In this document: in pieces, positions 14,801 to 23,800 of the stretch
Position numbering within the stretch: the stretch's first letter is position 1
Layout: the number at the start of each line of letters is the position of its first letter
Source of the DNA: Sacculina carcini
Lineage: Eukaryota > Arthropoda > Thecostraca > Sacculinidae
Direction of reading: 5' to 3'
NCBI GenBank assembly: GCA_916048095.2
Contig: OU696573.1
Location: 8,960,306-9,024,305, forward strand
DNA: 64,000 bases
Translations under genes and position numbers: made by a program
Notes under the pieces: model-generated
Databases searched by the model: none
What the model was told of the DNA's origin: nothing
What the model saw: only the letters and a program-made list of their open reading frames with translations

Positions 14801-17800
14801 CCCCACCAGAGGGTTATCTCCAAAGGCCGCTGCACTCCGTGAAATGCACTGCATGGGTGGAACTTTCGAAGCATGGATTGATTGGTCCTTTCTGGTTTGA
14901 AGATGAAAACCAACATTCGGTCACAGTCAATACTGGGCGTTACCCATGGGTCATTAAGAAGTTTTGGACAGCATTGGGTAGGTTACTTCTACCCAAGGCT
15001 GTCCAAAACTTCTTAGAGTTGTGAGGGGAGCAGTGGTTCCAGCAAGATGGTGCAGCTCCTCACACACATCAAATGAGTCACTGGAATGGCTGCGACAACG
15101 CTTTGCTGATGGTCTCATCAGTAAGAGGTGTGATCCCATACTCGCCGGATCTTAGCCCCCAGATTTTTATCTGTGGGGTTATATTAAGGATATTGTTTAC
15201 AAGGACAATCCCCAGACCATACCTGAATTGAAGACATCCATCATTGATGATGATAATTGGTGTGTCAATGAAAGAAGTCAATGTCAATGAAACAGAATAT
15301 AGAATGAAACAAGAATATAAATGTCCCAGTCAATGTCCCCAGTCAATGAAACAAGAATATAAATGAAAAAACACAAAAAACACAGCTCATGTCATGATTG
15401 AGTCAATGTAAATAAATGGTAAATATATCGATTTAAAATAAATTAATTGACATTGATCGTAAAAATCAAAGACATACATCATGATTGATTTGGTGTAAAA
15501 ATAATGCAAAACCGCAATAATTCAATGCGAGCAAATAGCCGACCGTCAAAAACGACAGCGACAATCGGCGACGGCTCAATTCGTGATTACGACATTCCAC
15601 CAAGACGTGTCGCACGGATAGAGGTGTGTTACATGCACCGCATACATGATGTGGTTTTCAAGCAGTAGGTGGTGATGGGTGCTGTATGTGTGACCGACAC
15701 GAAGTCGGTACAGCGCCACCTCCTCAAATCTCTTCCGGTGATAACTGCACGTCCAATGTACAATCTCAGGCTTTACTACTTTTAGCTTATGAGGACCACT
15801 TTCATCCCAAACACGCTGCCACCGCAATCGAATTTATTGATGGATGATTTGATTCATGTCCGAAAACGGAACACGAAAATTAAAATAATGTGAGTAAAAC
15901 GTGCGGGCGGCAGCGCGCTTTACTGCTTTGTCGGCCCGCTCATTACCCACAATACCAACGTGGGCTGGAATCCAGCTCAATACTACGCGCTTGCCCTGCT
16001 GATGAAGCCGGTTATGCATGATGTGAATGCGTTGTATAAGTTGGTGAATATTAAAGCTTGAGATGGTTGATATTGCACTTAAAGAGTCAGATAATCAAAA
16101 AGCATGATTGAGAAGATGAGCGAATAAAAAGCAGGGCCAGCAGGATAGCGTAAAGTTCAGCCGTGTAAATGGAGGCGCTCGGTGGCAGCGTGCTCGAGCG
16201 GCACGTACCTCCACTTACAACCGCACAACCCACACCACTGGCCGACTTAGATACATCAGTGTACACGGCAGTATACCGTCCGTAAGAATGAATTCGCTCC
16301 TGTGTGTTAGAGCGAAGCACACTGGGCACTGTACGGTGTTTCGGCAGAGCTGCTAGCGAGACGTCGAACTCGGGTGTGACCAATTCCCAGGGTGATTCCG
16401 CCGTGTATTCTTGTTTGATTACGTCGTTAGCACCCATCCCGCATGACTCCAGCAGTGCCTTAATTTTGCTGCAGAACAGCACAGAACACAGGTCCTGGAA
16501 GGTGATGCTGCTCAGGCACATGCTGGGAAAATACCACGTCATACGCGGGGTTTTCATGGGTGCTTGCCAGCTTATAAGAATAACGCATGCCCAGCTCTTG
16601 ACGGCGGAGCCTCATCAGCCTCAACAGCCTCAACATCATTTTCATGTTTTCAGTTTTATCGGACTCCCTTAGTGCTTTAAATTCATTGTCGTCTTCTCCT
16701 TACATCCTCTTATACATATGCTTTTTATCTCTCTTGACATCATCCACCACCAGGGCAAGCGTGTAAGGTTCTGCTGGATTCCGGCCTATATTGGTATTTT
16801 GGGCAATGAGCGAGCTGACAGAGCCCCAAAAAGAGCTGCTGAACGAGACTTTTATTCATTTTATTTTAACTTTCAAATTCCGTATTCGGACTTTTATCCT
16901 ATTATACATCGTTTTATCCGTTCTCGCTGGCAGCTCTCCTGGGACGAATGTGGTTCTAACAAATTAGAAGCAGTGAAGTCCGAAATCGGACATTGGATGT
17001 GCTCTTGTCGCCGGAAGAGGTCCGAGGAAGTGGCGCTCTGTCGTCTGCGTGTGGGTCACACGTACGACACGCATCGCCATCTTCGGCATCATCTTCGAGC
17101 AATCGGCGGTCATTGAGGGCCGCATTTTTTAATTTTACGGCGTTTGCCCTTTAGAATTATTTATTGAGTTATATCTATTGACATTCATATATTTCACCAT
17201 CACTCTAATGCATTTTATTGTTCCATTCTTCATATTCCTTGAATAATGTGCTTTAGCTTTAAATAGACTGGGGGCGCCGTATGGTGGGCGGTGCTCTCCA
17301 TAAATGCAAATATCCCAACCAAAACCCTACTCCACCCGGGACATAAACACAAAATTAAGAAAACAGTTATTAAACACAATTATGCAAAAAATGTATACAC
17401 AATAAACTGACACGTTCACACCACACAACACAATAAGCACGATCAAATACACCCAAATCCACTTATAAACAAGCACGCTTATACACACCGCACATTCACT
17501 CATAAATTAAAACGCTCAAATACACAGCGCATCCACACGCGACTATATGCACAATCAAAACAGTGCCAATACATGCTCAGCGACATACCAAACAAATCAT
17601 ACAAACAAATAAGTATGCATATTCACACGATCAATCTTTTTGTTTTTCTGTTTACCTTGTTTTTTTCAGTGTACGTGAACACACACATGTGAACACAAAT
17701 CAAGACATATATACACAAATGAATCAAACCTGGCGGGCACGCATGGCCTTAAGCTCTCTTTTTCTGGCTCGTACACGTCTGTTAGCCCTCAATCTCTTCG

Positions 17801-20800: not shown

Positions 20801-23800
20801 CAATGGTTTCCATTTCCTACGAAAATCCTCATACACACATTCATTTCAAACATTGATACATGTAGATGTATTTTTGGCATTTTAACACTAGAAAGACCGG
20901 AGCTGTCAATCGATGGCTGTCAATCAACAGCTCCGGTCTTAATCAGCTGCGTTTTTCTTAACAATTTTCCTAAAATATCCGTCGTTTACCGTTTCAAATG
21001 ATTTTGACAACGCTCAATCCAATGGTGCTCAGAAAATGGAAGTAAAATGAGATTTAAAAGTCCCAACTCTAATTTGAAAATTCCAACTTCAGTGAAAAAT
21101 AACGTTAATAAGTTTATCATTTTGTTTTAGTAAGTTGCTTTAGATAATTTTTATGTTAATTCATCAACCATCATTCGAAAGATCTTTTTGAGTTATATCT
21201 AGTGATAATATTTGAATAGAGATGCTATATAATGAATAATGATGACAGTAGGAAATCACACACGAGTGTCCATTGCAACGTTGCAACACAGTTGAGTGAA
21301 TTGTTTAACAACATCACAGTGACATTTCCATTGTATCGATTTCTAAACCGAATAACGTACTTGTTTCAAGTACTCGGCTTCTGGATATACTCCAATTAAC
21401 AGATAAAAACCTGAAGTAAACGCCAGAAACCACACTGTTCTTTAATATGAACAAATAGACAGTGGATGTTTCCGATCAGATTGCCAGAACGTGACAACAT
21501 CCAGTAGACGCTGGCCGATGTGTTTGTGTGTGTGTTTTATATAAATACAGTCTTGATCAACAGTCACGTTTTATACAATGAGGCTAGTAATGAAGCCGTT
21601 CGAAAAAATCTATTCAGTTGGAATGAGAAGAGTTGATCGACTGAGTACCTCACAAAGCTACTGATGACAAATATTTGCCTGATTAATTTCCCTGGAAATT
21701 TCGTGGCATAACGTGAACATTTGCACCTAAAAATTAACAAACGTGTCTCACATGTTTGTGAGACGTTGCACACACGTTTCATGTTCACTGTTTTGTGAAA
21801 TTAAAAAAATCAAACAAAAATATTTGCATTTCCTGTGAAACACATTTGCGGAACACATACCACAATCCTCAATTTCAATCATGTTTTTCTAAGTAACTGT
21901 GTCGTTTTGGCCCGTTTTATTCAATTATTAGTGTCAAAATGTAATGGATTACACGTTTTATAAGCCTAACACATTTGAAATATTGCATGTATTGTATGTG
22001 GTCGATAATGTGAAAAACGTGGGCAACCACGTCAGTTTACAGCTATCATTTTTCTAGGTGGTTGTATTTTTGTCCTCTTAATATGATAATATGATAATGA
22101 TAATATGTTAATATGATGTGATAATATGATATGATACAATACTATGAATATGATACATATAATATGACCTCTTAATATGATACAAATTATAACAAAAAGT
22201 ATGTCATTAGAAATAAATTTAGCTACTCTATTGAATGGTGTATGTTAATTTGCCAAACAAAATAATTTTACTTATTCAGACAAATGTGGACAATTATTTG
22301 TTTTCCATCAAACTTGCACTTTTCAAATCGAATTTGCCACCATTAAATTCCCTTTGATTGTACTTTGATTGTAGCACCATTATATTTGGATTTGGCTAAA
22401 TTTTTCGAAAACACACCGATGAATAGTTTCGGGAAAACATTGTTTAAAAAGAACTATTCCAATTTACAGTCATCAATTGACGGCAGGTCCTGCTATGATA
22501 TGTTTATCAACGGTATGTACCGTTGATATGTTTATTACACTAAAGAATAAAAGTCGGTTAGAGACAAGTATGTAAGTCTAACGAATGAGGAGATATTTGA
22601 CACTGAAATTTAAATACCCGTAAACTGACGGCTCCGGTACTTCTAGCGCGCACCAGCTTGCTGAGACAGTATGGCGCTCCCGTTAGACTCAAGAGATGTT
22701 GATGAACGAACCCAGGCCGGGATTCGAACCGTGAATCTATGACAGGAAAAGTCAGCGCCTTAGTCACTGAGCTACTCGGGAGTTTCGCGTTGATGGGTTA
22801 ATAAAGTATATAAAACACAAACATATTTCGAATTCATCGACCTGAACTGCCACTAAATATCAAGTAAAAGTAAAACATTCATTCAACGTACCCAAGCATA
22901 AGTTGAGCTCAATCTACGTGTACCAGTTGCAGTGGCGCACATACATGACGCCAAGTACAGAATAAATTTATCTCCCAACAAAATCAGCAGTTTCATTTGA
23001 ATATGCAGTTATTGGCATGCACCTAGTGTATAGGGTAGCGTGTTTATACTACGGTCTGTTGAGACTATTTGGTCTCAGCGCAGAGCGAGGGCGCGCGCCT
23101 CGCTCTGCGCCCATCTACAACGGTCACGGTCCTTTCCAATCATTACTTATATTCACGTTATTTGATAATTGATGGATTTCACGTTCACGTTATACGTATA
23201 TACTTTCAAATTCAAATGTATGTTGCCATTCAGAACGGAACAGAAAACATATTGACAAAATTTCGTGATTGGCGAGGCATAATAATGTTTAAGGTTAATT
23301 AATATTAATTACTCTAAGCAAATGCTTTTATATCTTAGTGGTATTTTTACGCTTAGATGTTGGGCTTGAAGACTTCATGGAGTTATGAAACTCAATCACT
23401 AAAATTAACAATTAGAAATTTTTGACATTTTAGTTTAATAAAACACAAAAACAAAAATCATGTACATGTAGGCTAGTAAACAAAACAATCCCTCATAAAT
23501 CAAAATCACCACCAATTCACATCTTCGAGCACAGAATTTATAGACACATCTACTACAGGCATGCTGTTCCTTGTCTACACCTAGGCGAAAAGTAGTATGT
23601 CTCCATACCGAATATGTAGACGATTAATCGTAAAGTGTATATTTCACTCCCAAACACCAGAGACTACCCTTGTACAGCCAGCAACTAATGAAATATTTAG
23701 CGCCTTAGCTATTCTTGTTTACACAAAAGCAAACACATCAAAACTAGTCAAACATGAGATACCAAGATTTGCACTACTCAATGAAATACACACAAAACCA

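Follow-up and report, generated by a model that had tools for sequence, protein, structure and literature searches.

A core-less descendant of a MULE transposase with a long tandem-repeat tail in Sacculina carcini

What is the origin of a long open reading frame (ORF) that joins a FLYWCH-type finger to a giant His/Pro/Gln repeat array, and could its product still act on DNA? Such a frame lies on the minus strand of the stretch analysed here, 64 kb of contig OU696573.1 of Sacculina carcini (the window). Comparison with relatives in the same genome shows that the ORF descends from the transposase of a Mutator-like element (MULE), that its catalytic core has been lost, that its tail is homologous to the tail of a relative with a core, and that the terminal inverted repeat (TIR) of the family is absent. 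We regard it, with a probability of roughly 0.7, as derived from the transposase of a Phantom-type MULE and potentially able to bind DNA but not to cut it. The copy in the window is most likely immobile and partly relaxed. The parts of the ORF are as follows.

17724..20813, minus strand: core-less MULE-derived ORF, 1029 amino acids, ATG start (ORF call and genome relatives)
20460..20813, minus strand: residues 1–118, N-terminal region homologous to MULE transposases (alignment with relatives)
20631..20705, minus strand: FLYWCH-type finger C-x4-C-x16-H-x-H, C37 to H61 (invariant columns; family profile to 2RPR)
17811..20411, minus strand: 18-bp tandem array coding HHTQAP- or HHIQAP-type hexapeptides, broken up by basic blocks
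19830..19901, minus strand: basic block 1
19284..19355, minus strand: basic block 2
18864..18935, minus strand: basic block 3
18159..18230, minus strand: basic block 4
17727..17810, minus strand: basic block 5, at the C-terminus; the core-less C19 copy and the cored copy L012 have homologous C-terminal blocks
17214..17219, minus strand: nearest AATAAA/ATTAAA-type signal, about 500 bases past the stop codon (position only)

Descent from a MULE transposase

A sequence-only reading of the window had described an intact 1029-codon minus-strand frame with a C-x4-C-x16-H-x-H finger and five in-frame basic blocks, antisense within a 20-kb intron of acetyl-CoA carboxylase (ACC). These observations hold. 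The basic blocks start at residues 305, 487, 627, 862 and 1002, with spacings of 182, 140, 235 and 140 codons (546, 420, 705 and 420 bases). The finger residues C37, C42, H59 and H61 do not vary across an alignment of 14 sequences, the window's included. The ORF lies between two putative ACC exons identified by sequence motifs, one near 12378 (a 16-residue motif) and the other, the next to be detected, near 32966 (MKMVMTL). Tandem Repeats Finder gives an 18-bp unit with 143.5 periods over 17811–20411 (73% matches, 6% indels), the basic blocks being inside this span. That the frame stays open through the array is weak evidence for a protein, because none of the six frames of the consensus unit contains a stop; a second minus-strand frame is likewise open for 135–230 codons between the basic blocks.

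The finger is the part of the ORF that is not due to chance, since a search of the host genome (264 Mb, 43 contigs) with residues 1–152 gives 71 matches at E ≤ 1e-3, counting the query itself and some split matches. Many of these lie in frames of 400–921 codons, and the idea of a protein with no relatives is rejected. Finger-match stretches were taken for reading in sets of 20, then 12, six and three. A hand-merged table holds about 76 finger places, and 55 of them have a core match of the L027 type no more than 3 kb downstream. A profile of the family matches the structure of human FLYWCH1 (2RPR, chain A) with E = 3.8e-8, and PF04500 is matched by nine of the 14 members at E ≤ 1 (best 8.2e-6). 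The window's own finger is not among the nine; alone it has no PF04500 match at E ≤ 1 or E ≤ 10, and the whole ORF has no Pfam match at E ≤ 10. The FLYWCH assignment made from the window alone is thus borne out by the family profile and not by a Pfam match of the window finger itself. The AlphaFold2 model of residues 1–70, made without an alignment, is unusable (mean confidence score pLDDT 46). Rfam at gathering cut-offs and ARAGORN find nothing across the window, and a single-protein scan of viral contigs finds no relative of the window protein.

The copy that links finger and tail is L012. In a single frame of 775 codons it carries the finger head, the MULE domain PF10551 (E = 2e-8) and a tail of HDTE/TEST-type repeats with two basic blocks, the last one reading MKRKRANKRSRDRRKEL. 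Its head is about 64% identical to window residues 1–128. The last basic block of the window matches the last block of L012 with E = 8e-5 in a single comparison, and none of 1000 shuffles scores as high; the match to the first block of L012 is weaker (27 of 1000 shuffles as high). Head and tail of the window ORF are therefore both homologous to one cored member. PF10551 is absent from the window ORF, and no core match lies within 3 kb of it. Finger and array are, on the evidence of L012, not unrelated repeats joined by chance, and the suggestion that the architecture matches no described protein gives way to an account by descent, in which the ORF derives from the transposase of a Phantom-type MULE and lacks the core. 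A second cored subfamily is formed by L023 and L027, and a third by L057. The tails of L027 and L057 have two basic blocks each, while the frame of L023 ends without one.

Phantom MULEs with FLYWCH fingers have been described (PMC6446971, PMC5225508, PMC3169594). Muta1 of Aedes and Tm1 of Meloidogyne have the N-terminal FLYWCH finger that is common to the family here, a MULE (DDE) domain as in the cored relatives, and long TIRs with 8–9-bp target duplications as in copies L010 and L011; the likeness is in these shared features. The window protein differs in lacking the DDE core, and its locus lacks the family TIR. By these sources Muta1 has 504 and Tm1-A 496 amino acids, whereas the longest cored frames here reach 775–921 amino acids with repeat tails. 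In the aphid Phantom elements and Rehavkus (PMC6446971), a minisatellite closes the transposase ORF or follows it. The repeats here differ in being coding, in lying in the tail and in outlasting the core.

The hint that a MULE should be looked for proved right. L010 and L011 have 198-bp TIRs with 8- and 9-bp target duplications, the usual anatomy of a MULE. With nhmmer --max this TIR is absent from the 64-kb window and from 20 kb around the C19 copy, and no convincing inverted pair surrounds the window ORF. With neither core nor terminal repeats, the window ORF can neither mobilize itself nor cut DNA. It might still be the cargo of a mobile non-autonomous MULE, as TIR-bearing deletion derivatives with finger-only 175-aa frames exist (L010, L011), but the missing TIR at both the window and C19 loci and the lack of an inverted pair round the ORF make this very improbable. 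Self-comparison finds no inverted pair round L025, L030 or L031, and round the C19 copy only one of 17 bp; it is weak, because the stretches extend only about 2–4 kb per side. L012 is negative in it too, its far TIR being outside its stretch.

L010 (C7:5451852) and L011 (C21:5758775), which bear the TIRs, have identical 175-aa finger frames, and their stretches have no match to either core query. Finger fragments also recur at regular intervals, of about 2,840 bases at C2:11428657-11448717 and about 6,539 bases at C8:7416998-7430315. These are MULE pieces caught within long tandem arrays.

Core loss in other copies

The nearest sibling of the window ORF is C19 (L009, C19:702031-703035), a core-less protein of 335 amino acids with the same build and an HDTEEP array. 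Its C-terminal basic block is homologous to the last block of the window. Five further long core-less frames with finger, tandem array and basic tail are found on C20 (L025), C12 (L030), C22 (L031), C25 (L055) and C30 (L059), which makes seven with the window and C19. L031 has three basic blocks. Array composition varies among the other core-less proteins (HDTEEP, TEGHNTTESAQ, MDEESNATASQ, PPIVPTQ and VEGTKSDSGRSV). On the plus strand of L055 (C25:2521500-2523250), the strand opposite the PPIVPTQ array is also open, for 337 codons. Two more distant frames on C37 (L039) combine a finger with an acidic array and match neither core query; only one of them ends in a basic stretch. A diverged core is possible in this pair.

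The tail blocks fall into three groups, window/C19/L012, L030/L031/L057 and L025/L059/L027, and every group includes a cored copy. Within groups, the tail pairs tested beat all 1000 shuffles, apart from the window against the first block of L012. Between groups, 12 to 33 of 1000 shuffles do as well as the closest pairs, and for most pairs the number is far higher. The tail of L055 stands apart from all three groups; its finger is 80% identical to that of cored L029, 66% to that of cored L054 and at most 40% to those of the four other types tested. Three tail groups each with a cored member, together with the L055 finger tied to L029, indicate that the core was lost at least four separate times in four subfamilies. 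Six separate losses are probable on these comparisons, because L030 is nearer to cored L057 (synonymous divergence, dS, 0.08) than to L031 (0.23), and L025, with a finger 94% identical to that of cored L023, is nearer to L023 than to L059. The L059 finger is 56–62% identical to those of L025, L023 and L027. In the literature searched, which takes in few subscription papers, no title or abstract opening describes recurrent core loss leading to finger-array-basic proteins.

Constraint on the finger, the array and the C19 copy

Does the window copy still behave as a gene? Branch models were fitted to 118 finger codons under three topologies. Several results weigh against our main reading. The ratio of nonsynonymous to synonymous rates (omega) on the window branch is 0.51 under the topology supported by the flanks and 0.49 and 1.11 under the others. 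It is inseparable from 1 under all three (twice the log-likelihood difference 0.73, 0.84 and 0.00) and lies above the background (5.6, 5.1 and 4.9). In the array, 68 units of a narrow pattern, from 108 unit-like stretches, contain 62 nonsynonymous and four synonymous codon differences; counted as distinct variants these are 7 to 2, with possible changes at 42 to 11. The finger does not resolve the window and C19 as sisters (log-likelihoods within 0.8 across the three topologies), and their synonymous divergence of about 1.07 exceeds that of the flank they share. The number of long open frames shows no clear excess either. Among the 21 finger places without an L027-type core match, eight have long frames, namely the seven described above together with one member of the C37 pair. 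The remaining 13 include four that hold L012-type core pieces (L014, L036 and two in L018), which lowers the true denominator to 17 or less. Against an in-frame chance of one third, 8 of 21 and 8 of 17 give binomial values of 0.40 and 0.17, and the count alone is no proof of selection.

Some of these results would suit a dead relic, a functionless core-less frame which stays open as its array unit is stop-free in six frames and its finger has not yet been hit. The window omega, the free drift of the array residues and the share of long frames all agree with it. However, a neutral window branch would yield 1.8–3.4 stops in the finger and none is observed, a Poisson chance of about 0.03–0.16, with frameshifts extra. 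There are no finger indels between the window and C19 in 118 codons, against eight gap runs in the 5′ flank block. The retention of this block in both copies and the clear constraint on the C19 sibling also speak against a relic, and we place it somewhat below even odds. We read the window finger as having been under past constraint that is now weak or lost.

The array itself has no residue-level constraint, as the ratio of its variants matches the ratio of possible changes. An alternative unit definition, also with 68 units, gives 74 nonsynonymous and 8 synonymous differences (15 and 2 as distinct variants, with 41 and 12 changes possible). In the other core-less arrays the nonsynonymous and synonymous counts are 16/8 in C19, 4/0 in L030, 10/1 in L031, 21/9 in L059 and 31/33 in L055, the sole one leaning to synonymous change. 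The sequence-only reading had proposed that the His-rich array binds metal or phase-separates. The His content, 19.4% of the protein overall, would favour such a working part, but the unit types interchange freely, and the composition is not kept, as the other core-less arrays differ. Residues varying like neutral DNA leave the proposal unsupported, and we consider it hardly credible; the array as a selected His polymer is rejected.

C19 behaves differently. Between the two copies the finger has a nonsynonymous divergence (dN) of 0.245 and dS of 1.07 over 121 codons, and the C19 finger has an omega of about 0.10–0.12, below 1 under all three topologies (twice the log-likelihood difference 23.7, 7.8 and 25.1). 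By these models the C19 finger is under strong purifying selection, and C19 appears a better candidate than the window copy for a working or domesticated gene. Pairwise finger dN/dS is about 0.3 among L030, L031 and L057 and 0.24 for L025–L023, low values that transposase selection before core loss could explain.

The window and C19 copies share flanks, which are listed with an insertion near the 5′ one.

17551..17723, minus strand: 3′ flank resembling that of the core-less C19 copy
22814..23164, minus strand: 5′ flank block that C19 shares at 66% identity
20887..22650, strand undefined: insertion of about 1.76 kb between the ATG and the 5′ flank block, with no C19 match (limits by eye)

The 3′ flank is collinear in the two copies. 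A genome search with 22880–23200 finds the 5′ block only at the window and C19 loci, and its alignment has 555 columns with eight internal gap runs. The excess of synonymous over flank divergence, together with the distances of the interspersed repeat described below, could come from an independent insertion, a constrained flank or an exchange of the finger with another MULE. The two copies might be paralogous genes of the host, encoding a domesticated FLYWCH protein that binds DNA as a transcription factor would. The constrained C19 finger, the common flanks and the absence of the family TIR at both loci fit this, and animal FLYWCH factors are reported to derive from Mutator transposases (PMC10027918). 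The FLYWCH host proteins (FLYWCH1, the C. elegans FLYWCH factors and Mod(mdg4) isoforms) are linked to the window ORF through the profile match to 2RPR, whereas the ORF has a single finger, followed by a tandem array in which basic blocks recur. As the C19 branch may partly predate the loss of the transposase state, and the window copy is relaxed, we think a host gene rather unlikely.

Beyond the 5′ block, the window has a diverged interspersed repeat at 23884–24065 (43 genome matches; 40 of 89 candidates scored), continuing towards 24440, with a sharp end reading CAGGGYTGCCAG. It stands at the same place in C19, and the two copies are no closer to each other than to other copies. The repeat is rejected as the element's own TIR, being interspersed, with eight other copies aligning past the point where C19 stops. 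A single insertion common to both loci is doubtful, as the C19 copy differs by 0.085 from another genomic copy and by 0.183 from the window's. At L048, a second, inverted piece of this repeat is close by. The insertion at 20887–22650, which we presume to be piggyBac-like, has inverted ends like CTAGAAAGACCGGAGC and CTAGAAGTACCGGAGC, with TTAA at one end. The same ACC intron also contains non-LTR retrotransposon frames (27589–31446, by reading) and, at 25170–27000, what we take from an end sequence to be hAT-like remains. Elsewhere in the window, a 309-codon frame (33769–34698) runs over a 22-bp array of 16.7 periods with zero indels.

A possible DNA-binding role

How might the core-less ORF have arisen, and what could its product do? 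An internal deletion would have removed the DDE catalytic core of a Phantom-type MULE transposase, so that the FLYWCH finger of the N-terminus and the tail of the C-terminus came to be read in a single frame. This tail may then have grown by tandem duplication to about 143 18-bp periods and five copies of the C-terminal basic block. The protein, if made, would be nuclear, with the finger on DNA and the basic blocks adding charge-based nucleic-acid binding or nuclear import; the earlier proposal that they act as nuclear signals is plausible. Without its core, the protein could sit on its sites without cutting them or serve as a DNA-binding protein of the host. The sites occupied would be MULE ends, for a repressor, or host promoters, for a factor, and this copy may do neither. 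DNA binding, nuclear location and competition at sites are inferred. The KP repressor of Drosophila P elements likewise retained its DNA-binding part and lost catalysis through internal deletion. KP is also a model for competition at transposon ends; its transposase is unrelated, and it resides in a mobile element with its TIRs, while the window ORF does not.

More broadly, this genome may repeatedly turn Phantom/MULE transposases into a standing class of MULE competitors or transcription-factor-like proteins, with minisatellite growth of the tail tuning length and multivalency. In such a class C19 would be the fixed member under selection, and the window copy a giant that changes fast. We offer this wider picture as speculative and, on balance, improbable. 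A single genome here offers seven frames from four subfamilies in which a transposase was shortened in the same way, each subfamily having a cored relative for comparison, and the step from a transposase to a DNA-binding protein that does not cut is thereby open to direct test. A giant His/Pro/Gln protein, striking as it is, can come from minisatellite growth in the tail of a transposase.

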